The notes under the pieces were generated by a model. The model saw only the letters and a list, made by a program, of their open reading frames with translations, made no database searches and had not been told where the DNA came from. DNA of 45,758 nt. Origin: Balneolaceae bacterium (lineage in GTDB: Bacteria; Bacteroidota; Rhodothermia; Balneolales; Balneolaceae). The position numbers and the translations under genes are program-made. Of the stretch, positions 25,988-45,679 are shown in pieces; within the stretch, counting starts at the first letter, position 1, and every line of letters begins with the position of its first letter. Location of the stretch: contig RECI01000148.1 in assembly GCA_007694095.1 (NCBI GenBank), positions 1-45,758 of the forward strand, in the 5' to 3' direction.

Positions 25988-28900
25988 ATGGAATATAAAA
26001 ACAAAAAATACCTGTCCGTTTATGGAATACGTCTTACAGGTATGATAGTCCTGTTCTTAATATGGGGAACAGATGGTTTAAGCCAGGTAATTCAGCCGCA
26101 ATATTTCTCTATTACCGAAGGAGTTTCATCACCGGTTGTACAGACCGTTTTACAGGATAGCTACGGAATGCTGTGGATTGGTACAGGCAACGGGTTACAA
26201 AAGTATAATGGTCACAGATTTGAATCATTCAGAACCGTTTCCGGAAATCCCGGCAGCCTGCTGCACAATAATGTATGGGGGTTGATTGAGGATGTTGAGA
26301 AAAATCTCTGGGTGGCGAACGAACAAGGCATTTCTAAATACAACCGAAAGAAGAATGAGTTCATCAATTATAATATTGCCGAACAATTTAATATTTCTGG
26401 CCTCGAAGGTGGCAGGATTTTTAATTTCTATATAGACAGCCAGGACAAGCTTTGGGGTTTGGGGTTTCAGGCCGGCCTGCTATTCTATGATCCACAGTCA
26501 GATCAGTGGAACCGTGCTGACTATCTGCTGGATGATGTCGCGGGAACTATTAACACCGGTGATTTTCTATTAGGTTTTGCAGAAGACAGCAACAGACGGC
26601 TCTGGGCCGGATCCATAGGAAACGGCTTGCTCGTAAAAAACAGAACCGACAGCTACTTTAGTCCGGCCGAAATAGATGAGGGAAACCGAATTGATTTTAC
26701 CACTCCCATTAATCACATCACTTCCCTTTATGCCGATTCTGCCAACATCATTTGGATTACAACAAGAAATGGAATCTACAAATACAATCCGGAAAGTACC
26801 GTTTTAAAAACCATCACAGAGTACGATTACTCCCAGGCTATTACGCTAAACTATTGGAATCGCATTTTACAGGATAACGAGGGAAATATCTGGATTTCAA
26901 ATAACTTTCGGGGAATATTAAAATTCGATGGCATTTCAGACCACTTTGAGGAAATCACTGTTTCCGGCATTTCACGAGGTATAGATAACAGAATGGAGCT
27001 CGTTACAACGGATTTCACCATTGATAAGTCCGGCATTTTCTGGTTCGGAACGACTTCACTTGGACTCCTGAAATACAATCCTGTCGAAAATCCTTTTACT
27101 GTGTATACGCATGACAGTGCCACAGAGGGCAGCATCAGTTACAATGGGATATTTGGTATTCTGGAATCCAGCATATCCCCCGGAACGATCTATGTGGGAA
27201 CCAGGGGAGGCGGAGGGCTGAACATTTTTGATCAGCAAAAAAAGACATTCAGACAGGTCGTCATTCAAGGTGTCCAGGATATGTATGGTGGGTCAGCCAG
27301 GACTATTCTTGAAGAAGCTGACGGCTCCTTATGGGTAGGTTCCTGGGGTGATGGCCTCATCAAACTCGATCCTGACTACAGGGAAGTGAACCGATATACC
27401 CATGATCCGGATTCACCCAATAGCATTTCAAACAACTCTGTGCGTGTAATAAAAAAAGACGGCAATGGTGTCTACTGGATCGGTACCAATAATGGATTGA
27501 ATCTATTCGACCCCGATACCGGACAATTCAAACAAATTCAGAGCCTGCTGACCCGGTCATTTACTAAGGAACTTCACGAACTGTTATCGCAGAAGTTGTT
27601 GTCAAACTCAAAAGTTGCCGGCATCGAAGAGGTGGAAGATTACCAGAATCTCACACACACGTTTGAAGTTGAAGAGACAGGCAGATATCTCATTATGGCA
27701 GTTGGTGAGGGTACAGGTGACCTGATGTTTGATTACGGATGGCTGGAAGATGCTTCTAACAACCCGGTTTGGAGTGCGGAAGAGATCAACGATTCCTATT
27801 ATGCCGGGGGAGCCTTTAAAAACAGGATATTTATTGACGATATCACTTTGGATGCAGGAACTTATAATCTCAGATATATCTCCGATGGAAGTCACAGTTA
27901 TGAAAACTGGAACCAGGAACCACCGGCTTTTACCGGTTTATGGGGGATTACCGTTTTAAAGCTTGATGATAGCGAGCCTGATGCTTCCATCCTGTCAATA
28001 TTGAATCAAACCCGTGATGAATACAGTAACTACAGGCTCATCACCGGCAATAATATCCGATCCATTCATGTAAGCGATAACAGTGTCTGGATTGCAACCG
28101 ACAACAATGGCCTGAATAAAATCGATTTGGATACCTATACGGTTACAACCTATATGCATGATGAAGCAGATTCCAACACCATCATCAGTAACGTACTTCT
28201 GGAGATCTATGAGGCCCCGGATGGTATACTGTGGATCACGACACTTGAAGGATTGAGCAGGTTTGATCCGGTAACGGAGCAGTTTACAAATTATACGGAG
28301 AGAGACGGGCTGGCTACCAATCTTCTCTCCAGTGTTATTCCCGGTGATGATGGCAATTTATGGATCACTTCACAAAGCGGTATCTCCCATATGGTTACCA
28401 ACACAGCCATCGAAAAAATTACATTCGTTAATTATTTTTCAGAAGATGGCCTGGGCGGCAATAGTTTCATACCACTTGGCTCTCTCAGGGCCAGTGATGG
28501 GATGATCTATTTTGGCGGCGATCATGGCTTGGTAGAATTCAGCCATTTCAGCCCAAATCTAACTCCACCCGATATCGTCATTTCTGATTTCAGGATAGCC
28601 AACGAATCGGTGCGCACTATGGGAGATGATTCTCCTGTCTCGGTATCACTTTATGACCTTGAGGAAATCACTCTTTCGCATTCCCAGAATTACTTTAGTA
28701 TTGATTTTTTAGCCCTTCATTACGCAAATCCTCAAAAAAACCAATACGGTTACATGTTAGCAGGTTTCGATGATGACTGGATATATGATAACAGCACGAG
28801 TGCTTCATATGCCAATTTGAAACCCGGTGAGTATAATTTTATTGTGAGAGCATCCAATTCAGATGGAATCTGGAATGAGGATGGGAAATCCGTAAAAATT

Positions 28901-29956
28901 ACCATTCTCCCGCCATGGTGGCTAACATGGTGGGCTTATAGTTTATATCTATTAATTTTTATTGGAGGTGTGTTTACCGTTGACAGGGTGCAGCGCCGCC
29001 GTATTATAAGCAGAGAACGAAAAATTGCTCTTGAAAAAGAACTTCAGCAAAAAAAGGAGATAGAAAATGCATACCGGAAGCTTGAAGCCGCCCATGAAAA
29101 TCTGAAGGCTGCACAAACCCAGCTGGTTCAGCAGGAAAAACTGGCCAGCCTGGGACAGCTCACCGCAGGTATCGCTCACGAGATCAAGAACCCTCTCAAT
29201 TTTGTCAATAATTTTTCAGAAGTAAGCCGTGAAATGATCACCGAACTCCGCGAAGAAATCGACGGTTTTTTAACAGGGTTTCAAACCGGCGGCAAAACCA
29301 GGCTGATCAGTAACGAGCAAAAAAAATCGGCAGATCTGATTCTGGAACTTCTGGTTGAACTGGAATCCAATCAAGCCAAAATACATGAACACGGTACTCG
29401 GGCCGACTCTATTGTAAAATCCATGCTTCAGCACAGCCGGGGCGGCTCGGGTAAAATGGAACCAACCGACCTGAATGCCATGATTAAAGAGTACACAAAC
29501 CTGGCCTTCCACGGCATGAGGGCAGGGAAAGATCCCATCAATGTGGACATTGAACTGGACCTGGATGAACAAATTGGCATGGTGCATATGATAGCAGAGG
29601 ACTTTTCAAGAGTGCTTTTGAATCTTTGCAATAATGCGTTTGATGCTATGAGGGAAAGATTAAATTCCAATGACCAAGCACCAAATTCCAAACGGTACAG
29701 TCCAAAACTAACTGTCAGAACACAAACCAGCAATGGCATTTTAATCATCGAAGTGGAAGACAACGGCCCCGGAATTCCCGATGAGATTAAAGACAAAATC
29801 CTGCAGCCGTTTTTTACCACCAAGAAGGGCACGCAAGGAACAGGCCTGGGGCTTTCGATCACCCATGATATTGTGAAGGCTCATGGAGGAGAGATATTAA
29901 TCGAATCAAAAACAGGTAGATATACAAAATTTGCAATACATTTAAATCACACTTAA
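25988..29956 (+). CDS. Two-component propeller / Y_Y_Y sensor histidine kinase
   Basis: This 1322-residue hybrid-type sensor has a signal/anchor helix at about 12-32 and two seven-bladed-type propeller arrays of Reg_prop repeats (units such as [49 protein letters not shown]). It then has a Y_Y_Y domain ([20 protein letters not shown], then [18 protein letters not shown]), a transmembrane helix ([16 protein letters not shown], about 980-998), a coiled coil, and the kinase core with H1064 in [15 protein letters not shown]. The ATPase domain has DNGPGIP and [13 protein letters not shown]. Such sensors typically detect periplasmic oligosaccharides. Two oddities stand out: a beta-sandwich of about 150 residues (about 525-670) splits the propeller, and the ATPase loop carries the AT-rich repeat SNDQAPNSK. 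No receiver or AraC output domain is fused, unlike classical hybrid systems. Confidence 0.9.
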
Positions 29957-30105: not shown

Positions 30106-32313
30106 ATGGAAACTACTAAAAAACGTAGGGTAGACAAGGAACAGATTGCAGAAGTGTGTCAGGAATGCATTCAAAGAACTAAGATTTCTCATAACCCAAA
30201 ACGCAGTTTTTTTCATCCCCGATTAAAAAATCTCAACAGAATCGAGATTCACCGGTCGAAGACCCATGGCGGGATCTTTCAACGATTTGCACTCCATTGT
30301 GTGGAATTCTATGAAGGGTTGGTTCGTCTGTCCCATAAGGTACACAGATTCATCTTTCCCCGACGCAATAAGATTTACGGGCAACCCAGTCCGCATCATT
30401 TGGTGACCGGGCATCTTACTTTTGGCCGTCGAAAAGAGGATGCCGATTCCCCGGTTTTCAATATGCACGTAGAGCTTTGGGCAAGAACAATTTGGGGCGG
30501 ATACCGGAAACTCAGTGAGGGAAAGTCAGACCGGAACGGACAGTTCAGCCTGCCATACAATCTGTTCTATGTTCATCGGCTATACATTGCCAGGGTTTGG
30601 CTCGCGGTCTATCAAACTGATCATGAACACTTCAATAAGCTTGGTCAGCACTCTCCCACTTTCAGAGATTTTAAACGTATTAAAATTTCTAAGGGAGATT
30701 TGGTCGGTATCGAGTATTGTTGCCGGCAGGTTCAATTATCTTATTGGGAATACCGAAAAGACACACCGTTACCGCGGGTTGTGATCAGGGATCATGATAA
30801 GGATGCTCCGGACGAGTATTCACCCGGTTATAATGAAACGCTTGAAAAACAATTCATCCCGATCGAGCTGATCAAACTCCGGCACATTGAGATGATCCGC
30901 ATGAACCAAGGGCTTACCTATGAACAAATAGTTGAGGATTACCCGGAGAACTTAACGGTTTGTATGGAGAAAAAGATACCCGGAATTACCCGTGGGGACG
31001 ACTGGTTTGGTGAAAGGATGATGAACGGTATGTATGCCTGTGATTTCGACCGCGACCCAAAAAACCCAAACCTCTACTGGGTTCACCATCATTGGGGTTC
31101 ATATGAAAAGACCTACCACCACTACGCCATGCCGGATGTGGACATGTGGTTTGAACTGAAGGATAATGGCCTGCCGAGGCCAGTGAAGATTACACTGACC
31201 GGCCCGTTGACGGCAAAAGAAAAAGATCAAAAACAAAAAAGAACTTTTACTCCCGGGGATGGAGAAAAATGGTTGGCGGCCAAACGAATTTGCCGGGTAA
31301 GTGCAGGGCTATATGCGGAGTTGGCACACCATTTTGCCGGAACTCATGTGAATACAGAACAATTTGCCATTGCCTGTTTCAGGAATCTGCGGCTAAATCC
31401 CATATCTGGTTTGCTCAAATCCTTCCTGCGCTCTGTGGTACTGGTAAACCACACCGCTGACCGCATCCTGATAGGAAAGGGATACATTACAACTGCCTGT
31501 GCATTGACCCCCAAAGGGATCGATCAAGTAGTGTATAACGTCATGGGTACGTTAGACTGGAAGGGATATCGTCCGATGCAGCCAATCAGTGCTGCGCATA
31601 CCTATGCAAAAGCCTGCAACCTCTACTGGGATATTGTCTTTGATTTTGTTTCCGGATTCATCGATGATCCTATAAACCGGGGTTCGATTCTGGAGCAATG
31701 GTTTGAGATCTATTGCTTCTCTGAAGACCTGGTAAACCACAGTGTTCCGGCCTTCCTTTGCCATTATTTGCAAAATGCTCTACTGGATGGGAATGGTAAG
31801 ATGAAAGGAAATGGCAGTACGGACTGGTATCAACACCATCACCGGATGGATTTGAACGATGAGCGGCCGGAAATAGATGGAATAAAAAGAGCCGTTTCTA
31901 AAATAACCGATAAAAAGAATGGCCATGAAGTAACGGATGAGGATATCAGCCAGCTGAAACAGGCTTGTACTTATATGATATATCAGGCTACTTTTGGTCA
32001 TACCTGGTCTAATTCGAAGCAGTACGACGATATCGGGGAAGTTCTCTATTGCAGCCTGGGCCTCCGATTCGGAAATGGCCCGGATGGCGTAATGGGGCCT
32101 GAATCGGATCATTCCATTGCACCGGATCTCACCCGGTCAACACAGATGATGTGGTGGAGTAATATGCTTTCCCGCACCGGTTACGGATTCATCATGGCCA
32201 ATGAGGATGGGGACGTTCCACCGGAATTACGGAAAAACCTGGAAAAGCATCGGCAGGAGTTCGCCGATCTCAACATTGATATAGATATCATCCAATCGCG
32301 AACCAACATTTGA
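30106..32313 (+). CDS. Lipoxygenase-family non-heme iron dioxygenase
   Basis: This 735-residue protein should add O2 to polyunsaturated fatty acids, giving hydroperoxides. The iron-ligand set of lipoxygenases is complete: H409 and H414 in HHFAGTH (HxxxxH), H632 and N636 in GHTWSN (HxxxN), and a C-terminal isoleucine I735, the carboxylate ligand. Supporting family blocks are DDWFGERMMNGM (cf. D-x-FFG-x-Q-x-LNG), QFAIACFRNLRLNPISGLLKSF and the NHTADRILI helix. The N-terminal 250 residues are basic and contain a beta-rich stretch (100-215) in the place of the PLAT domain. No signal peptide is seen. It is the first gene of a tight operon: 12 nt to the catalase-like gene, then 12 nt to a giant kinase. 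Regiospecificity and substrate are unknown; typical members of this group lack PUFAs, so an external or algal substrate is possible. Confidence 0.85.
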   Translation: METTKKRRVDKEQIAEVCQECIQRTKISHNPKRSFFHPRLKNLNRIEIHRSKTHGGIFQRFALHCVEFYEGLVRLSHKVHRFIFPRRNKIYGQPSPHHLVTGHLTFGRRKEDADSPVFNMHVELWARTIWGGYRKLSEGKSDRNGQFSLPYNLFYVHRLYIARVWLAVYQTDHEHFNKLGQHSPTFRDFKRIKISKGDLVGIEYCCRQVQLSYWEYRKDTPLPRVVIRDHDKDAPDEYSPGYNETLEKQFIPIELIKLRHIEMIRMNQGLTYEQIVEDYPENLTVCMEKKIPGITRGDDWFGERMMNGMYACDFDRDPKNPNLYWVHHHWGSYEKTYHHYAMPDVDMWFELKDNGLPRPVKITLTGPLTAKEKDQKQKRTFTPGDGEKWLAAKRICRVSAGLYAELAHHFAGTHVNTEQFAIACFRNLRLNPISGLLKSFLRSVVLVNHTADRILIGKGYITTACALTPKGIDQVVYNVMGTLDWKGYRPMQPISAAHTYAKACNLYWDIVFDFVSGFIDDPINRGSILEQWFEIYCFSEDLVNHSVPAFLCHYLQNALLDGNGKMKGNGSTDWYQHHHRMDLNDERPEIDGIKRAVSKITDKKNGHEVTDEDISQLKQACTYMIYQATFGHTWSNSKQYDDIGEVLYCSLGLRFGNGPDGVMGPESDHSIAPDLTRSTQMMWWSNMLSRTGYGFIMANEDGDVPPELRKNLEKHRQEFADLNIDIDIIQSRTNI

Positions 32314-32325
32314 AAAACCTGAGAT

Positions 32326-33417
32326 ATGAAATCAAACCGTATTCCAATTTTCAACTCCATCCGTACCGCTGTTAACCGCTTTGTTGGGTTGATATTCCTT
32401 TGGTTATCCACCAAGGCATTCACCTGGTTGCTGACTATTTTCGGAAGCATCATAGCCAGAAAAAAGATGTCGCATAATAATGGTATCGCTGCGTCGGGAT
32501 CTATACGATTTGTAGATAATCCCGGATTCCCGCTCCATCCGTTCTTTGAGCCTGGAAAAACAATGCCTTGCCGTGTTCGGCATGCGGCAGCCTCTTTTAT
32601 GGATGATGCGATGCGTGTTGTTCGGAGTATGTCTATAAAAATGGCAGACACCAATTATAAAAGCCCAATGGATATCGAGCTGAACACCGGTGAAACCGCA
32701 CTTTTTTGGTCGGTTGCAAGCTTCTTCCGGTTTGCAAAGTACAAGAAAACCCGTTTTGGGATGCAGTATGAGGAATACTACCGGAAGTATCCGACGGGGG
32801 TGAAAGGTGCCCAGGTTGGAATGCGGCGTAACCCGACTTCATTTTCAAATCTAACTTATTATTCGCAGACCCCTTTCCTTTATAAAGCCGAAGACAATGT
32901 GATGCGATATATTAAATATCGAACAGTTCCTTCGGAACCTGTACCCGAATCAGGTATTCTGGATGATTATGACATGAAGATACCCTCTGAAAACCAGCGT
33001 ATTTTACCCGGTGAAACTCGCAGCCGAAATTATCTGAAAGATGAGTATGTCGAGAGGCTCCGGGAAGGCCCTGTAAAGTACAAGCTTCAGGTTCAGTTAC
33101 ATCAGGCGTCAGATGACGATGATGCAGAGATTTTCAATTGTTGCCGAAAGTGGGATGAAGCATCTCATCCGTGGATGGACCTGGCGGAAATCACTATGAA
33201 TAAGCCACTTGATTGGGCAGAGAGTACCAAAATGATCTTCTCCATGAAGAACCTGCCTAAAGGCCTGGGCATCATACCATCTTTTTCTATTTATGATTAC
33301 AATTCACTCAATTTCCTTCGCAAACACTCAGACTTGGCGCGATACGCCCGGGTGTGGGCCATCAGGATATTTGGAATGCCACCCGAGATTCCGGATAGTG
33401 ATGTTCGGAATTGCTAA
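32326..33417 (+). CDS. Catalase-related hydroperoxidase (allene oxide synthase-like), membrane-anchored
   Basis: This 363-residue protein has a catalase-type heme core and probably transforms the lipoxygenase hydroperoxide. After a hydrophobic N-terminal anchor (about 17-42) comes SHNNGIAASGSIRF, which aligns with catalase VHARGAGAHGYF and places the distal His at H50. FFEPGKTMPCRVRH aligns with the catalase PGK...VRFS block. MDIELNTGETALFW carries the distal Asn at N120. The His-Asn spacing of 70 equals that recalled for coral allene oxide synthase (H67, N137). In coral and some cyanobacteria the catalase-like domain is fused in front of a lipoxygenase; here it is a separate gene just after one. 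The proximal tyrosine is not at the expected place: R332 is followed at +4 by Asp336, and the nearest Tyr is Y340. It could therefore be an allene oxide synthase, an epoxide-forming enzyme, or altered. Confidence 0.75.
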   Translation: MKSNRIPIFNSIRTAVNRFVGLIFLWLSTKAFTWLLTIFGSIIARKKMSHNNGIAASGSIRFVDNPGFPLHPFFEPGKTMPCRVRHAAASFMDDAMRVVRSMSIKMADTNYKSPMDIELNTGETALFWSVASFFRFAKYKKTRFGMQYEEYYRKYPTGVKGAQVGMRRNPTSFSNLTYYSQTPFLYKAEDNVMRYIKYRTVPSEPVPESGILDDYDMKIPSENQRILPGETRSRNYLKDEYVERLREGPVKYKLQVQLHQASDDDDAEIFNCCRKWDEASHPWMDLAEITMNKPLDWAESTKMIFSMKNLPKGLGIIPSFSIYDYNSLNFLRKHSDLARYARVWAIRIFGMPPEIPDSDVRNC

Positions 33418-33429
33418 CTCCAATATTAT

Positions 33430-36400
33430 ATGGCTGAAGAACTTATTTACGAAAGTAAAAATTCAAAGATTTTCCTGAAAGAAGACAAAGAAAGAGGAAT
33501 CAGGGTAGTTACCAAGATTCTAAATCAGGAATTCCCGTCTCTGCAGGTCATCAATCAATTCTACAATGAGCACGAGCTAATTCACGGACTTTCCATTGAA
33601 GGGGTGCGTGAAAGTTTTGAGCGAAAAAGGGTGAACAATCGTCATGCGATTGTGATGGAATATGTTCCAGGTAAATCCATCCGGGAAATGGTGGAAGATG
33701 AAGCATTCAACATTCCGGATTTCTTAATGTATGCCATAGAGATTTCCAGAATCCTATCCGAAGTGCATGCTGCTAAAATCATCCATAAAGATATCAATAG
33801 CCATAATATCATTGTCGATGAAGAAACCGAAAAGGTATATCTATTGGATTTTGGCATTTCTACCAAGCTCAATCTAAAGAAGAAGAGCCTTGAGAACCCT
33901 GAAAAACTTGAAGGCACCCTGCTTTATGTCTCACCGGAACAGACGGGTCGTATGAACCGCATGGTAGATTACCGCACAGACCTGTACTCTCTCGGGGTCA
34001 CTTTTTATGAGATGCTGGCCGGTCAGGTGCCGTTCCAATCGACCGATGCCATGGAGATCGTCCATGCACATATTGCCAGTCAGCCACCACAAGTCTCGTT
34101 CCATCGGCAGGGCGTCCCGGAAATGCTGGAGCGTATTATCACCAAGTTAATGGCCAAGAACGCAGAAGACCGCTACCAGTCAGCCCTGGGGTTGATGAAA
34201 GATCTGCAATACTGTCTGGTTGCCTGGAAACAACTCGGCCGTATCGATGAATTTGAATTATGTCAGCACGACTTCTCAGGTGATTTCCAGCTACCACAGA
34301 AACTTTACGGACGAGAGAAGGAATTGAGGTTGTTGATGGAAGCCTTCAACCGGGTTTCCAATGGTCATTTAGAAACCGTGTTGGTAGGTGGGTACTCAGG
34401 TACAGGAAAATCTGCATTGGTCCATGAAACACACCGCCCGATCACTGCCAAAAGAGGGTACTTTATTGAGGGAAAATTTGACCAGTTCCAGCGTTCAGTG
34501 CCTTATCTTGCGTTTATACAAGCCTTTACCAGTTTCGTTTCCATCCTGCTTACAGAAAATAAAACCCGGCTGGAACCCCTTCGAAAACAGATTCTGAATA
34601 CCGTTGGAGATGAAGGAAAGGTACTTACTGACCTGATTCCCAATCTTGAACTATTAATTGGGCCACAGCCGAAAATTCCAAAGCTGGGTGGCTTGGAGTC
34701 ACAAAACCGATTAAATTACCTGTTTAGCTCTTTTATCAAGGCGATTGCCGCTGCTGATCATCCCATCGTGCTCTTCATCGATGACCTGCAATGGGCAGAT
34801 AGTGCATCCTTATCACTTCTGAACGTTTTGATGTCCAACAAAGAACTGAAACATTTGATGTGTATCTGCGCATACCGAGATAATGAGGTAAGTCCGGCGC
34901 ATCCATTCATTACAACGGTGGATGAAATGCGAAAAAAAGGCGCCGTGATAACCGAAATCAAAATCGGTAACCTTGATGATTCAGATGTGCAACAACTAAT
35001 CTCCGACGCTACATACCTGTCGCTGAAACAGACCGCCTCCCTTGCGAAACTGGTCTATGATAAGACCCATGGAAACGCCTTTTTCGTAACTCAATTCCTC
35101 AAAAATCTTGCAGAGGAGTCCCTTTTACACTTCGACTACAAGAGCCGGAAGTGGCAGTGGAATGATGCGAAAATCCGTGATCGTAATATCACAGACAATG
35201 TGGTGGAACTGCTGGCCGATAAAATAACCTTTCTGCCCAAGGAAACACAAGAGATACTTAAAGTTGCTGCTTGTATCGGAAACCAGTTCGATACGGAAAC
35301 GTTGGCCGCTTGCTACAATCCGGATGCTAACTCAGATCGCACATCGGATGAAAGGAATGAAACTGTATTGGAAGCACTTCAGGCAGCACTTGCCGGAGGC
35401 TTCATCATGCCGATGGAGAACCGCTACCGTTTCATTCATGACCGGATACAGCAGGCGGTTTACTCACTCATTCCGAATGACGATACCAGTGCTGTACACT
35501 ATCAGATCGGGTCCCTTCTATTGGAAAAGGTTTCGAAAGAGCAACTGGAAACTCAGCTCTTCGAGATTGTGAATCAACTGAATCAAGGGCTTAAGCTAAT
35601 CGATTCAGAGGCAGAAAAAGAAATGCTTGCGGAGTTAAATCTTCGAGCCGGCATAAAAGCACGAGAGTCATCAGCTTTCGAGCCAGCGCTGGCCTATTTT
35701 GAGACAGGTATCGGTTTATTAAGGCCAGATCACTGGGTGTCACAATACCAACTCAGTCTCGGGCTATTCACAGAAGCTGCTGAAACAGCGTACAATTTGG
35801 GTGAATTCGAACCCATGGAAGAAAAACTGAAGACCGTATTGGAGAACCGGAAAGAACTGATGGATGTGGTTCGGCCCTACGCGATACGGATAAACGCCTT
35901 AAAGGCACAGAATAAACTGCAGGAAGCCATCGATACCGGCCTGGAAGTGTTGGAACAATTGGGAGAAAAATTTCCTGAGAAAGGGCCGCTGCCATTGGTG
36001 ATGGTTGATTTGATCCGGACAAAGATCAAGCTGATAGGCAAAGACGAGAATTATATCACCAATCTACCGGAAATGACAAATCCGTACAAGGCGGCTGCAC
36101 TAAGGATGCTTAATGACATCGCATCACCGGTTTATTGGGCACGGCCGGAAATCCTGCCGTTTATCATTTTCCGGATGGTCAGGCTTTCATTGAAATACGG
36201 GGTAACAGAGATCTCCGCCTTTGGTTTTGCTACCTATGGATTGTTGATGTGCGGGGTGTTAGGTGATATGAGTTCAGGCTACCGTTTTGGGCAGATCGGT
36301 TTGGCTCTGCTCGACCGTTTTGAAGCAAAGAAATGGTTGTCGCAGATTTATACGCCAATCTATGCCCTTATCAATCACTGGAGTGAGCATGTACATAAGT

Positions 36401-38877
36401 CACTGGATCCCTTCCTATATTCCTACAAGGTAGGATTTGAGACTGGTGCCATTGAATACGCCTGTATCAATGTCAATATTTATTGCAATCACATCTACCT
36501 GGGAGGGAAACCTCTTTCACAGTCTGAACGGGAGATGAAAATGTTCAGCGAGCAGATGTTAAAATATAAACAAGAGACAAACTACAATTATAACGAGGCT
36601 TATCGCCAAGCTGCGCTCAACCTTCTTGGCCTATCGGAGGACCCGACGATTCTGTCTGGCGAAGCCTATGATGAGCGCAAGATGGCGCCTATTCACAATA
36701 AACAGAAAGACCGGGCGGGCATCTTCCTGATCCACTTTAATAATGTGATGCTTAAATACCTTTTCCATCAATATGATAAAGCGCTGGAACACGCAGCATC
36801 TACCCGGCCTTTATTGGATGCGGTATTGGCCAAATACGATGTGGCGATGTTCTGGTTCTACGAAGGCCTGGTGAATATGGCAGTGGCACGGGAGAAGAGT
36901 GGTAGTAAAAGGGATTCCCCGTTACGTCGCGCGAATAAGAATATCGCACAATTCAGAAAATGGGCAAAATTTTGCCCGGTTAACCACCAGCATAAACTGG
37001 ATCTGCTCATCGCGGAGATGGCCTGGTGCAAGGGTGAGGATGAGAAAGCCCGAAAACACTATGATCTGGCGATTAAGGGTGCGGAGGATGGCGAATTTCT
37101 CAATGAGGAAGCTCTTTCATTCGAAAGAGCCGGCTTGTTTTACCTCTCGGCCGGCCAGGATTTCATCGCGGAGAATTACTTGCGTAAAGCATACCAGACT
37201 TACAAGGAGTGGGGTGCTGCCGCAAAGATGCTGGATTTAAAAAAACAATTCCCGAAAATTCTTATTGGCCTGGATAAAGATCCTCCTAATGTCAGCAAAT
37301 CAGCAACTCAGGTAGATACTTCTATGGCAGAGAATTCTACCCTGGATCTTGATACCCTGATGAAAGCTGCACAAGCGATTTCCGGAGAAGTTGTGCTGGA
37401 TCGATTGTTAAAGACCCTTTTGAACATCAGCATAGAAAATGCCGGTGCAGAATCCGGTTGTATAATTATGAAAAAGGGACAGGATTGGTACATTAAAAGC
37501 GCATATTTTGCCAATCAGACAGACCAATCTGAAAATGCAGAAACACCTCTTCTTGAGAATAATCGGGTACCGGAAAGCCTGATACAATACATTCAGAACA
37601 CCAAACAGAGCCTCGTTTTAGATGACATAGCAAAGGACCATAGATTTTTGGCCGATCCGGTTGTGAAAGCAAATGGGTTAAAATCTGTAATGTGTCTGCC
37701 GTTGTTCACCAAGGGTAAATCCGAAGGAGTCCTCTATCTGGAGAATAATTTACAGACATCTGTTTTCACCGAGAGCCGGGTCCGATTTCTTGAATTGTTG
37801 TCAGGGCAAATCGCTGTTTCAATAGAGAATGCCTATCTATATGAAAACCTGGAGATGAAAATTGAGGAAAGAACATCCGATTTGAAAAGTTCATTGGAAA
37901 ACCTAAGAGCAACCCAGGAACAACTCATCCAGCGGGAAAAACTGGCCTCCCTCGGCCAGCTTACCGCCGGTATCGCCCACGAAATAAAAAACCCGCTTAA
38001 CTTTGTGAATAATTTTTCCGAGGTGAGTCTGGAGTTGGTGGAGGAAGCACGGGAGGAGGTTTTGAGTCAAAAGTCAAAAGTGATTCGGAACGAAGTGGAG
38101 AACCGCGAAGCGAAAAGTCAAAAGTCTCCCCTTGAGGGGAGTGCCGAAGCGGAGCGAAGGCGAGGGGTGTTGTCCCCTTATCCCAAAGGGATCCCTTCGG
38201 GGGAAGGGGGAAGTGAGCGAAGCGAACAGGGGGATGATGCGATCTCTGCAAAAGACGAAACCTCATCGCTCATCCTCGAAATTCTCGACGATATTGAGGC
38301 TAATCTGCGCAAAATCCATCAGCATGGCAGCCGTGCCGATACCATTGTGAAATCGATGCTGCTGCACAGCCGGGGCGGAAGCGGGGAGATGGAACCCACA
38401 CACCTGAATTCCCTTGTGAAAGAGTATGTGAACCTGGCCTTCCATGGCATGAGGGCCGGCAAAGAGCCGATTAACGTAGACATCGATCTGCAGCTGGATG
38501 AATCAGTTGATGAGGTGCCGCTGATTGCCGAGGATTTTTCCAGGGTAATTTTGAATCTGTGTAATAATGCGTTTGATGCGATGAGGGAAAGATTAAATTC
38601 CAATGACCAAGCACCAAATTCCAAACGGTACAGTCCAAAACTAACCGCCAGAACGCAAACCGAAAATGGCACTGTAATCATCGAAATTGAGGACAACGGT
38701 CCCGGCATCCCAAATGAGATCAAAGACAATATCCTGCAGCCATTTTTTACCACCAAGAAAGGGACACAGGGAACAGGGCTTGGACTGAGTATTACGAATG
38801 ATATTGTGAAGGCGCATGGTGGCACTATGGGTATCGATTCAGGACCGGGACAAACAATTTTTATCATTAAACTTTAA
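33430..38877 (+). CDS. Dual-specificity signalling giant: Ser/Thr kinase - AAA ATPase - GAF - histidine kinase
   Basis: This 1815-residue cytoplasmic protein is organised like cyanobacterial HstK-type kinases. Residues 1-265 form a Hanks-type kinase with HKDINSHN (H119, D121), DFG (D140) and SPEQTGR. The glycine loop is degenerate. The AAA/predicted ATPase domain has Walker A GGYSGTGKS (320-328) and Walker B LFIDDLQW (448-455). A long helical repeat region follows (about 690-1270), then a GAF domain (about 1310-1470), a coiled coil, the HisKA-like segment with H1517, and an ATPase domain ([20 protein letters not shown]). There is no transmembrane helix. A palindromic repeat is inserted in frame at about 1566-1602, and an AT-rich repeat lies in the ATPase loop at about 1722-1734. 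It starts 12 nt after the catalase-like gene, so its input may be the oxylipin made by the two enzymes; that is inference. Confidence 0.9.
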   Translation: MAEELIYESKNSKIFLKEDKERGIRVVTKILNQEFPSLQVINQFYNEHELIHGLSIEGVRESFERKRVNNRHAIVMEYVPGKSIREMVEDEAFNIPDFLMYAIEISRILSEVHAAKIIHKDINSHNIIVDEETEKVYLLDFGISTKLNLKKKSLENPEKLEGTLLYVSPEQTGRMNRMVDYRTDLYSLGVTFYEMLAGQVPFQSTDAMEIVHAHIASQPPQVSFHRQGVPEMLERIITKLMAKNAEDRYQSALGLMKDLQYCLVAWKQLGRIDEFELCQHDFSGDFQLPQKLYGREKELRLLMEAFNRVSNGHLETVLVGGYSGTGKSALVHETHRPITAKRGYFIEGKFDQFQRSVPYLAFIQAFTSFVSILLTENKTRLEPLRKQILNTVGDEGKVLTDLIPNLELLIGPQPKIPKLGGLESQNRLNYLFSSFIKAIAAADHPIVLFIDDLQWADSASLSLLNVLMSNKELKHLMCICAYRDNEVSPAHPFITTVDEMRKKGAVITEIKIGNLDDSDVQQLISDATYLSLKQTASLAKLVYDKTHGNAFFVTQFLKNLAEESLLHFDYKSRKWQWNDAKIRDRNITDNVVELLADKITFLPKETQEILKVAACIGNQFDTETLAACYNPDANSDRTSDERNETVLEALQAALAGGFIMPMENRYRFIHDRIQQAVYSLIPNDDTSAVHYQIGSLLLEKVSKEQLETQLFEIVNQLNQGLKLIDSEAEKEMLAELNLRAGIKARESSAFEPALAYFETGIGLLRPDHWVSQYQLSLGLFTEAAETAYNLGEFEPMEEKLKTVLENRKELMDVVRPYAIRINALKAQNKLQEAIDTGLEVLEQLGEKFPEKGPLPLVMVDLIRTKIKLIGKDENYITNLPEMTNPYKAAALRMLNDIASPVYWARPEILPFIIFRMVRLSLKYGVTEISAFGFATYGLLMCGVLGDMSSGYRFGQIGLALLDRFEAKKWLSQIYTPIYALINHWSEHVHKSLDPFLYSYKVGFETGAIEYACINVNIYCNHIYLGGKPLSQSEREMKMFSEQMLKYKQETNYNYNEAYRQAALNLLGLSEDPTILSGEAYDERKMAPIHNKQKDRAGIFLIHFNNVMLKYLFHQYDKALEHAASTRPLLDAVLAKYDVAMFWFYEGLVNMAVAREKSGSKRDSPLRRANKNIAQFRKWAKFCPVNHQHKLDLLIAEMAWCKGEDEKARKHYDLAIKGAEDGEFLNEEALSFERAGLFYLSAGQDFIAENYLRKAYQTYKEWGAAAKMLDLKKQFPKILIGLDKDPPNVSKSATQVDTSMAENSTLDLDTLMKAAQAISGEVVLDRLLKTLLNISIENAGAESGCIIMKKGQDWYIKSAYFANQTDQSENAETPLLENNRVPESLIQYIQNTKQSLVLDDIAKDHRFLADPVVKANGLKSVMCLPLFTKGKSEGVLYLENNLQTSVFTESRVRFLELLSGQIAVSIENAYLYENLEMKIEERTSDLKSSLENLRATQEQLIQREKLASLGQLTAGIAHEIKNPLNFVNNFSEVSLELVEEAREEVLSQKSKVIRNEVENREAKSQKSPLEGSAEAERRRGVLSPYPKGIPSGEGGSERSEQGDDAISAKDETSSLILEILDDIEANLRKIHQHGSRADTIVKSMLLHSRGGSGEMEPTHLNSLVKEYVNLAFHGMRAGKEPINVDIDLQLDESVDEVPLIAEDFSRVILNLCNNAFDAMRERLNSNDQAPNSKRYSPKLTARTQTENGTVIIEIEDNGPGIPNEIKDNILQPFFTTKKGTQGTGLGLSITNDIVKAHGGTMGIDSGPGQTIFIIKL
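38125..38236 (+). repeat. REP-like palindromic repeat inside kinase gene, copy 1
   Basis: A GC-rich element of about 110 bp is made of several hairpins (CTCCCCTTGAGGGGAG, AGGGGTGTTGTCCCCT, ATCCCAAAGGGAT, TCCCTTCGGGGGA). It is carried in frame within the 1815-residue kinase gene and encodes [17 protein letters not shown], then [11 protein letters not shown]. Copy 2 at 42793-42881 is nearly identical but lacks the central ATCCC/GGGAT hairpin. It is preceded by repeats of AGTCAAAAG. Confidence 0.85.
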
Positions 38878-38905: not shown

Positions 38906-40279
38906 ATGAAAAGACAAATTAAGCACCTGACGAATAATATAACCCGGCAACCGGCATTTCTTTGCATAACCTTGCCGTTATGGATAATCACATGCCTTTT
39001 TTTACAGGCAGGTATGGTCAATGCGCAGCAGCATAACCTGTTCTCACCGGATTTACAGATTCTGATTGAAAGTGTTGAAGATAAAGTGATTGAATGGCGC
39101 CGGGATATTCATCAGCACCCCGAACTTGGAAACCGGGAATTCAGAACAGCAGCACTGGTGGCAGATCATTTACGTAGTATTGGGCTTGATGAGGTGCACA
39201 CGGAAGTTGCGCATACGGGGGTAGTCGGAGTTCTTCATGGTGCACACCCGGGGCCGGTTGTAGCCCTCAGGGCCGATATGGATGCACTTCCTGTTACCGA
39301 ACGGGTGGATATTCCATTTGCTTCCACAGTACGAACAGTATTCAACGGACAGGAAGTGGGTGTGATGCACGCCTGCGGCCACGATACGCACGTTGCCATG
39401 CTGATGGGAACGGCCGAAGTACTGGCGAATTATCGTGAAAACCTTCATGGCAGCGTTAAATTCATCTTTCAGCCGGCCGAGGAAGGCCCGCCGGAGGGTG
39501 AAGAGGGTGGCGCCGAACTCATGGTAAAAGAAGGTGTGCTTCACAATCCCGACGTGGATGTAATCTTTGCCATCCATATCAATTCAATCCTGGAAATCGG
39601 ACACATTGGCTATACACCCGGCGGTACAATGGCCAGCGCTGACGATTTCCGCATCGTAGTGCACGGCGAACAGACCCATGGAGCCTATCCCTGGGGCGGT
39701 GCCGACCCCATTGTTGCATCGGCACAAATCATTACCGCACTACAAACCATTGTAAGCAGGCGTATGGTCCTCACCGAAAACCCGGCCGTGGTTACTATTG
39801 GAGCGATCCGCGGTGGTGTCCGTTCAAATATCATTCCTGAAGAGGTGGAAATGCTGGGCACTATGCGTGCACTTCACCCTGACGACCGTATTGCCATGAT
39901 TGCACACATGCATGAGATCATAGAAAACACAGCACGGGCAATGGGTGTCTCGGCAACCCTCACACTTCCGGTTACAACATCATACCCTGTAACTTACAAT
40001 GATGTTGACCTTACAAACCGGATGGTGCCGGTCTTGCAGACTGTAGCAGGGTCGGATAATGTGATATTGGAGAAGCCCGTTATGGGCGCCGAAGATTTTT
40101 CATTCTTTGCAGAGCAGGTTCCCGGTTTTTTTATCGGGCTGGGCGGACGGCCATCTGACGTACCCGCAAGCGAAGCGGCTCCCCATCATACCCCCGATTT
40201 TTATATTGATGATTCGCGCCTCAATCTTGGCGTGAAAGCGTTCGTTGCCATGACATTAGAGTATTTGAATAACCGGTAA
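38906..40279 (+). CDS. Exported M20-family amidohydrolase (N-acyl amino acid / ILR1-like)
   Basis: This 457-residue zinc/manganese amidohydrolase of subfamily M20D has an N-terminal hydrophobic signal (about 17-40). Family signatures are WRRDIHQHPELGNREF at the start of the mature domain, ALRADMDALPV, HACGHDTHVAMLMGTAE (metal-binding His and the catalytic region) and FQPAEEGPPEGEEGG with the catalytic Glu. The HHTPDFYIDD block near the C-terminus supplies a further metal His. Members cleave N-acyl or N-aroyl amino acids; plant relatives (ILR1/IAR3) cleave auxin- and jasmonoyl-amino acid conjugates. It starts 28 nt after the giant kinase gene on the same strand and may be part of the operon. 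If so, it could release fatty acids or oxylipins from amino acid conjugates; that is speculation. Confidence 0.9.
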   Translation: MKRQIKHLTNNITRQPAFLCITLPLWIITCLFLQAGMVNAQQHNLFSPDLQILIESVEDKVIEWRRDIHQHPELGNREFRTAALVADHLRSIGLDEVHTEVAHTGVVGVLHGAHPGPVVALRADMDALPVTERVDIPFASTVRTVFNGQEVGVMHACGHDTHVAMLMGTAEVLANYRENLHGSVKFIFQPAEEGPPEGEEGGAELMVKEGVLHNPDVDVIFAIHINSILEIGHIGYTPGGTMASADDFRIVVHGEQTHGAYPWGGADPIVASAQIITALQTIVSRRMVLTENPAVVTIGAIRGGVRSNIIPEEVEMLGTMRALHPDDRIAMIAHMHEIIENTARAMGVSATLTLPVTTSYPVTYNDVDLTNRMVPVLQTVAGSDNVILEKPVMGAEDFSFFAEQVPGFFIGLGGRPSDVPASEAAPHHTPDFYIDDSRLNLGVKAFVAMTLEYLNNR

Positions 40280-44593: not shown

Positions 44594-45679
44594 ATGTTGT
44601 ATAGCCCGGATAAACCGCATAATTACTTGCCGCCACTGCCTCCGGAGGCGGATATTGAAACGCCTATCGTGCTAAAAGCGGCTATCGCAGCAAACCGTGC
44701 ACTGGCCGAACTGAAGGGGAAATCGGAGAACCTTCCAAACCCGGCCATGCTGGTGAATTCCATTGTACTGCAGGAGGCGAAATCGAGTTCGGAAATTGAG
44801 AATATTGTCACAACAAACGACAAGCTGTTTACGGCGCTTTCGGCGGAGGACAGCAGCGTGGACCCGCAAACCAAGGAGGTGCTTCGCTACCGGCAGGCGC
44901 TTTGGAAAGGAGCCGGACGGCTGGCCGGAGGTGAGCCTCTCACCACCGGTCTTTTTATTGAGCTGATGCAGACGATTAAAGAAACCGATGACGGGATCCG
45001 GTCTGGTACAGGCACAGTGATCGCCAATCCCAACACAAAAAAAATCATCTACTGGCCGCCGGAGGGACAGGAACTGATCCGGAATCTGCTGGTGAACCTG
45101 GAGCATTACATCCGGGAGGATGACGGTGTGGATCCGCTGATAAAAATGGCAGTGGCACACTATCAGTTTGAGGCGATCCATCCGTTTGAAGACGGAAACG
45201 GCCGGACCGGCAGGCTGATTAACATCCTCTATCTGCTGGACAAAGGATTGCTCCACCAGCCGGTGCTCTACCTGAGTGATGCCATTATCAACCAAAAACA
45301 ACACTATTACCAATTGCTGCGGGGCGTTACCGAAAACGGGGAGTGGGAACCGTGGATCATGTTTATGCTGGATGCGGTTAACAGCACATCACATAACACG
45401 ATGGAGCGGATCGTGCAGATACTCGGCCTGCTGGAAGAAACACTCGACATTGCCCGAAAAAAACTCCCTGCCCGGGTCTACTCCAAAGAGCTGATCGAGC
45501 TGCTGTTTGAGCAGCCGTACTGCAAGGTAAAGCACCTGGTTGACCGCGGAATCGCCAAACGCCAAACCGCTGCCGAATACCTCCGCGAGCTGGAACAAGC
45601 CGGCATACTAAGGAGCAAACAGGCAGGACGAGAAAACCTTTTTTTGAACATTGGTCTGTACGAACTGCTTCTTAAGTGA
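44594..45679 (+). CDS. Fic-family AMP transferase with N-terminal inhibitory helix and C-terminal winged helix
   Basis: This 361-residue enzyme is predicted to transfer AMP (or another nucleotide moiety) to a target protein hydroxyl. The catalytic motif is exact: HPFEDGNGRTGR at 196-207, with H196 the base. An N-terminal inhibitory motif SSEIEN (S65, E69, N70) matches (S/T)xxxE(G/N), making it a class II, self-inhibited Fic protein; no separate antitoxin gene is needed or seen. The flap region is around NPNTKKIIYWPP (145-156). The C-terminus (about 290-361, KVKHLVDRGIAKRQTAAEYL) is a winged helix, typical of the Fic/DUF4172-like regulators. It is transcribed alone after a leader rich in TCGACA half-sites. 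Target proteins are unknown. Confidence 0.92.
   Translation: MLYSPDKPHNYLPPLPPEADIETPIVLKAAIAANRALAELKGKSENLPNPAMLVNSIVLQEAKSSSEIENIVTTNDKLFTALSAEDSSVDPQTKEVLRYRQALWKGAGRLAGGEPLTTGLFIELMQTIKETDDGIRSGTGTVIANPNTKKIIYWPPEGQELIRNLLVNLEHYIREDDGVDPLIKMAVAHYQFEAIHPFEDGNGRTGRLINILYLLDKGLLHQPVLYLSDAIINQKQHYYQLLRGVTENGEWEPWIMFMLDAVNSTSHNTMERIVQILGLLEETLDIARKKLPARVYSKELIELLFEQPYCKVKHLVDRGIAKRQTAAEYLRELEQAGILRSKQAGRENLFLNIGLYELLLK

Follow-up and report, generated by a model that had tools for sequence, protein, structure and literature searches.

A lipoxygenase, a catalase-related protein lacking the proximal tyrosine and a giant dual kinase in a possible mobile cassette of a Balneolaceae bacterium

Lipoxygenases (LOX) that are coupled with catalase-related haemoproteins are known from corals and cyanobacteria. 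In the AOS-LOX of the coral Plexaura homomalla (PDB 1u5u, 3dy5) and in the cyanobacterial catalase-LOX fusions of Anabaena and Acaryochloris, a LOX and a catalase-related protein are encoded together, as in the locus described here, which by homology brings together the same two activities. The LOX of this locus most resembles CspLOX1, the 9R-lipoxygenase of Cyanothece PCC 8801 (PDB 5ek8), with which it shares full-length homology, the five iron ligands and a transthyretin-like N-terminal β domain at the same place. Two further systems bear on the third gene of the locus, which encodes a giant kinase. HstK of Anabaena (Alr2258) has a similar domain layout, with a Ser/Thr kinase at its start and a histidine kinase at its end. 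In the oxylipin-dependent quorum sensing system (ODS) of Pseudomonas aeruginosa, the oxylipin enzymes are encoded beside their own receptor (PMC6377657), a role that the kinase of our locus would fill.

The locus lies in a window of 45,758 nucleotides, the whole stretch of DNA that was analysed, from a Balneolaceae bacterium, and it differs from each of these systems. Where CspLOX1 has Gly at the Coffa-Brash position, the LOX has Ala; it also has Trp684 in the place of Ile617, as read from the alignment, and a longer and more basic N-terminus. Its relationship to the coral LOX is only distant. LOX and its catalase-related partner (CAT) are two separate genes, in contrast to the fusions of corals and cyanobacteria, the latter being compared here by description. 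CAT lacks the proximal tyrosine of the coral AOS and has an additional hydrophobic N-terminal helix. Moreover, HstK is tied to nitrogen supply, whereas the giant kinase gene is fixed to LOX-CAT, and the P. aeruginosa system employs dihaem diol synthases rather than a LOX and a LysR-type regulator, OdsR, rather than a kinase (PMC6377657). Searches of an open-access library found neither a description of a LOX-CAT-kinase cassette nor one of any LOX that is tied to a dual kinase. The LOX itself is a further member of an already known family; what is new here is the cassette and the tyrosine-less partner, as a variant of the known coupling between LOX and catalase-related proteins. The features are listed in Table 1.

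Table 1. Features of the LOX-CAT-kinase locus and of a related family (positions in the window unless another locus is named)
Feature	Position	Strand	Evidence
LOX gene, 735 aa	30106..32313	+	Pfam PF00305; 5ek8 E 2e-100; 12-member family
LOX residues 1-94, basic, mainly helical stretch, possible membrane contact	30106..30387	+	charge counts; predicted helices 11-24, 57-83
LOX residues 95-211, transthyretin-like β domain in the place of PLAT, common to 5ek8	30388..30738	+	Pfam, alignment, AlphaFold, Foldseek
LOX H409 and H414, iron ligands 1 and 2	31330..31347	+	codons read; alignments
LOX A451 (Ala), Coffa-Brash position, invariant	31456..31458	+	alignments
LOX H632 and N636, iron ligands 3 and 4	31999..32013	+	codons read; alignments
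LOX I735, C-terminal carboxylate ligand	32308..32310	+	codons read; alignments
CAT gene, 363 aa	32326..33417	+	coral cAOS 1u5u E 5e-63; profile E 2e-73; Foldseek 1u5u E 4e-23
CAT N-terminal hydrophobic helix, residues 7-42, probable membrane anchor	32344..32451	+	hydropathy 11/11; helix in model
CAT S49-H50, corresponding to distal T66-H67 of coral AOS	32470..32475	+	alignment
CAT N120, corresponding to distal N137 of coral AOS	32683..32685	+	alignment
CAT R332-x-x-x-D336, corresponding to coral AOS R349-x-x-x-Y353; proximal haem tyrosine absent	33319..33333	+	alignments
Giant kinase gene, 1815 aa: Ser/Thr kinase, AAA_16 ATPase, middle region, GAF, HisKA, HATPase	33430..38877	+	Pfam; motifs; linkage
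Divergent lipoxygenase-like family, 472-505 residues, beside related giant kinases	L032:11200-12714	-	
Same family, second locus	L019:10715-12130	+	

Iron site and N-terminal region of the lipoxygenase

The original prediction, drawn from the interval 31327-32313 (codon 408 to the stop of the LOX gene), proposed a complete lipoxygenase metal site that would hardly arise by chance. Sequence comparison bears out both points and confirms the encoded protein as a lipoxygenase with a predicted five-ligand site, far beyond chance. Translation of 30106-32310 gives His, His, His, Asn and Ile at positions 409, 414, 632, 636 and 735, and all five are invariant in 12/12 homologues that share 41-81% identity with LOX in the alignment. 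The closest solved structure is that of the crystallised Cyanothece LOX (PDB 5ek8), which matches residues 100-734 with an E value of 2e-100; counted from the alignment, its corresponding ligands are H359, H364, H570, N574 and I668. Searching with a profile of the 12 homologues lowered the E value to 4e-145 and extended the alignment to the terminal isoleucine. In addition, both His pairs of soybean LOX-1 are matched by LOX in two alignable segments of a profile alignment, and LOX scores 43.2 bits in the Pfam Lipoxygenase family against a cut-off of 23.6. The AlphaFold model, built from 12 sequences, which are too few homologues, has a mean pLDDT of 57 and a pTM of 0.34, and its core is poorly modelled, with pLDDT <50 at residues 403-483, 633-702 and 731-735. 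The top Foldseek match of this model is again 5ek8, with an E value of 1e-32 but a TM score of 0.29. The case for the metal site thus rests on the alignment with 5ek8.

The N-terminal region of LOX combines a basic stretch with a β domain. Residues 1-95 contain 12 Arg and 9 Lys (21 basic residues), 7 His and 8 Asp plus Glu, giving a net charge of +13. Over the first 100 residues, the net charge is +10 to +13 in the close homologues and in the copy at locus L019, compared to +3 to +6 in the others; the strong basicity is limited to the former and is not a property of the whole LOX family. Pfam found no PLAT domain in any of the 12 family members, as had been proposed for this protein, and a transthyretin-like match at residues 115-150 of LOX, which is below the threshold and recurs with the same family in 8/12 homologues, supports the β segment that had been suggested from the sequence. 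A transthyretin-like fold is also indicated by Foldseek. In the AlphaFold model, a helix at residues 57-83 is followed by strands across residues 87-211, with a mean pLDDT of 86-88 at residues 121-170 and lower values on either side. The N-terminus had been described as both basic and atypical, and only the first part holds: residues 100-250 have their counterpart in the N-terminal part of 5ek8, in an alignment that starts at about residues 73-100, so that the region is common to this LOX branch and is no oddity of one protein.

LOX also has no signal peptide, in agreement with the original prediction, the most hydrophobic 19-residue stretch among its first 100 residues scoring 0.66. Intracellular action at the membrane is plausible, as had been proposed. 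In the 2016 paper by Newie on 5ek8, an N-terminal helical extension is said to mediate membrane binding, a role that would suit the basic helix of LOX.

The Coffa-Brash position is occupied by Gly401 in CspLOX1 and by Ala in S-specific LOX enzymes (PMC5437038), and from the sequence it is a reasonable guess that LOX oxygenation is of the S type or bis-allylic. However, the main product of CspLOX2, which likewise has Ala there, is 11R (PMC5437038), so the stereochemistry of LOX cannot be safely read from A451. As to the substrate, a PUFA synthase of the organism's own was considered as its source and dropped, since PfaA is absent from the genome. The genome encodes two desaturases with a QIEHH box, which we take to indicate front-end enzymes.

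Catalase-related partner

LOX, CAT and the kinase gene lie in one operon, in which the CAT gene starts 12 bases past the LOX stop codon. The CAT model, at a pLDDT of 60, has the coral-type catalase-related fold, with 1u5u as Foldseek match (E 4e-23), and coral AOS numbering corresponds to the CAT residue plus 17. In coral AOS, the distal Thr-His, Asn and R102 contact the hydroperoxide and the haem (PMC5617202). H50 and N120 of CAT, equivalent to distal H67 and N137, are invariant in 11/11 homologues, as is R85, equivalent to coral R102. Distal Thr66 is not kept; all 11 homologues have Ser49 in its place, a conservative change that retains the hydroxyl group. Of the other two arginines that contact haem in coral AOS, R64 corresponds to Lys or Arg at position 47 of the CAT homologues, and R360 may correspond to R342 of CAT with a shift of one residue.

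The proximal side differs. Y353 is the proximal haem ligand of coral AOS (PMC5617202), and a study on the coral wound response names an Arg-x-x-x-Tyr pair (R345 and Y349 in its own numbering) as important for catalysis (PMC3925239). A gap-free alignment places coral R349 on R332 of CAT and Y353 on D336; the proximal position is Asp, Glu or Gly in 11/11 CAT homologues, and none of the 11 has a conserved tyrosine downstream of it. A frameshift as the cause of the missing tyrosine is excluded by the agreement of all 11 homologues. As Tyr353 is not kept, we do not place CAT in the haem enzyme family proper.

All 11 CAT homologues begin with a hydrophobic helix that has no counterpart in the aligned coral segment, which supports the earlier idea that the partner of LOX is anchored in the membrane. 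A search of plasmids found no LOX and, for CAT, only distant catalase-like homologues from Sinorhizobium, one of which keeps R-AIV-Y at the proximal site. At the Sinorhizobium plasmid locus (pNGR234a 407216-416094, L021), genes for a catalase, a catalase-related protein keeping R-x-x-x-Y, a dihaem cytochrome c peroxidase and a patatin-like phospholipase stand in a row, possibly forming another lipid-peroxide locus.

Giant kinase, linkage and transfer

The giant kinase carries a Ser/Thr kinase and a histidine kinase in one chain, as assigned by Pfam and by its motifs, of which HKD, DFG, Walker A and the H-, N- and G-boxes are all intact; it is thus a dual kinase. No other protein of its own genome matches residues 1-1485 over more than about one sixth of the length. 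The histidine-kinase tail (37885-38877) shares ~57% identity with the tail of a neighbouring propeller-type histidine kinase (25988-29956), which suggests an exchange of modules within the genome. A reading as a defence system was set aside: the PADLOC matches of the kinase are headed by kinase-domain models (PD-T4-6, mad6), and LOX and CAT have none.

The linkage of the three genes was assessed at 12 loci (the window, L002-L008 and L016-L019). LOX and CAT adjoin in 11/12 and the kinase lies within the LOX locus in 11/12, in four different arrangements. Algoriphagus (A. lacus N3) keeps LOX-CAT with no kinase beside LOX, and genome G228 carries LOX but lacks CAT. Among 394 evenly sampled genomes of the phylum, LOX is present in six and CAT in five of those six; kinase homologues of at least 48% identity occur in exactly the five genomes with both LOX and CAT, all other full-length kinase matches being at most 38% identical. 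In 10 of the 11 other LOX-bearing genomes, the best kinase match is found within the LOX locus, and the LOX-linked kinases form one clade with a support of 1.0. An M20 peptidase gene (38906-40279) was considered as a fourth member and rejected, since none of ten related loci has a homologue of it. A gene for a Fic/SoFic-like protein adenylyltransferase lies close to the window's end, at 44594-45679.

The pairwise identities of LOX, CAT and kinase correlate with r of 0.92-0.96. Plain descent alone would also yield such a correlation, but the signs of horizontal transfer argue against it. None of 27 other genomes of the genus has LOX, and its closest copy is in a Balneolales genome, of the same order as the source genome. 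LOX is 76% identical to the Algoriphagus and Flammeovirgaceae copies and 64% to the Saprospiraceae copy, whereas a UbiA-type protein of the source genome, probably a haem O synthase, shares 76% identity with its counterpart in one genome of the same genus and only 39%, 38% and 32% with those in the Algoriphagus, Flammeovirgaceae and Saprospiraceae genomes. Altogether, the cassette proteins are 64-84% identical across distant genomes, compared to 32-39% for this housekeeping-type protein. As the cross-genome identity of CAT and the kinase is as high as that of LOX, the cassette moves as a unit; these comparisons show, at the level of sequence, a joint transfer of all three genes between distant bacteria.

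Relatives of the kinase have other neighbours. In two genomes of the same genus (L030:10049-13226 and L031:7225-10402, both on the minus strand), a related giant kinase is encoded after a flavin amine-oxidase-like protein of 754 residues and a protein of 304 residues with a lipoprotein-like start and no assigned family. Elsewhere, the neighbour of the related kinase resembles an amine oxidase or a lactone oxidase, or is a protein of 472-505 residues. This last family occurs in Algoriphagus and G228; Pfam gives no match for it, but a two-member profile of it matches mammalian LOX with an E value of 7e-6 and shares the motif APxxxRxPPPxxKD. It has H-x3-H in place of the H-x4-H of LOX, a second H-x3-H pair and a C-terminal Tyr or Phe. 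Kinases of this family thus seem to partner oxidative enzymes more generally, perhaps ones that modify lipids.

Proposed pathway and alternative readings

We propose, at a little short of even chances, that the three genes make up one mobile cassette for lipid oxidation and signalling. In the first step, LOX would work in the cytoplasm as a non-haem iron enzyme like 5ek8 and oxygenate polyunsaturated fatty acids or lipids with O2 at the inner membrane, its site being read from sequence and its activity presumed from it. CAT, which its N-terminal helix probably keeps at the membrane, would then convert the hydroperoxide to a secondary product such as an allene oxide, an allylic epoxide or an aldehyde, as its fold and distal residues suggest by homology; its haem would be bound in a non-standard manner because the proximal tyrosine is absent. 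Finally, the giant kinase, genetically linked to both, would detect either this product or the lipid oxidation state via its middle or GAF region and relay it by phosphorylation. The cassette is favoured by an association of LOX, CAT and kinase that persists while the gene order varies, and by the precedents for LOX coupled with catalase-related haemoproteins and for oxylipin signalling with an adjacent receptor. Against it stand the absence of PfaA, the lack of an adjacent kinase in Algoriphagus, the missing CAT of G228 and the pLDDT <50 of the LOX core; moreover, CAT without its proximal tyrosine may bind no haem and be no enzyme.

Alternatively, LOX and CAT might together serve metabolism or detoxification by oxidising imported polyunsaturated lipids and breaking them down, with the kinase regulating only the operon or a related stress response and no signal molecule involved. 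The patchy, transferred distribution suits such an accessory trait, the genome has no PUFA synthase, and a hydroperoxide lyase is among the coral catalase-type enzymes (PMC5617202). However, a very large dedicated dual kinase that is co-transferred with two enzymes would be costly for simple regulation, and the pairing of its relatives with other oxidative enzymes suggests a general enzyme-sensor design, so we regard this explanation as possible but doubtful. Rather unlikely, in our judgement, is that CAT is a haem-free pseudo-enzyme, serving LOX as a membrane scaffold or hydroperoxide-binding subunit or passing the LOX product to the kinase: the distal Ser-His, Asn and R85 would be surprisingly invariant for such a scaffold, although the loss of the proximal tyrosine to Asp, Glu or Gly and the hydrophobic helix, both in 11/11 homologues, would fit it well. 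An accidental adjacency of three unrelated genes, with an ordinary bacterial LOX as the one notable element, agrees with the crystallised branch to which LOX belongs and with a kinase superfamily that is widespread in the phylum, but it is highly improbable given that the three genes occur together, in varied order, diverge congruently and are transferred jointly.

Taken further, the cassette reading leads to a mobile bacterial oxylipin signalling system, in which LOX, together with a catalase-fold enzyme whose haem ligation would be unprecedented, makes a lipid signal that is read by a dedicated Ser/Thr-histidine dual kinase, and related kinases would work with further lipid- or flavin-oxidising enzymes, the divergent lipoxygenase-like family among them; we put this forward tentatively, as a minority chance. 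The tyrosine-less CAT puts to the test the rule that haem proteins of the catalase fold use a proximal tyrosine. In plants and animals, LOX products are hormones and mediators, and the use that bacteria make of LOX is mostly obscure; a compact mobile cassette of a LOX with its own giant kinase makes it testable whether the LOX product is a signal and the kinase its receptor.
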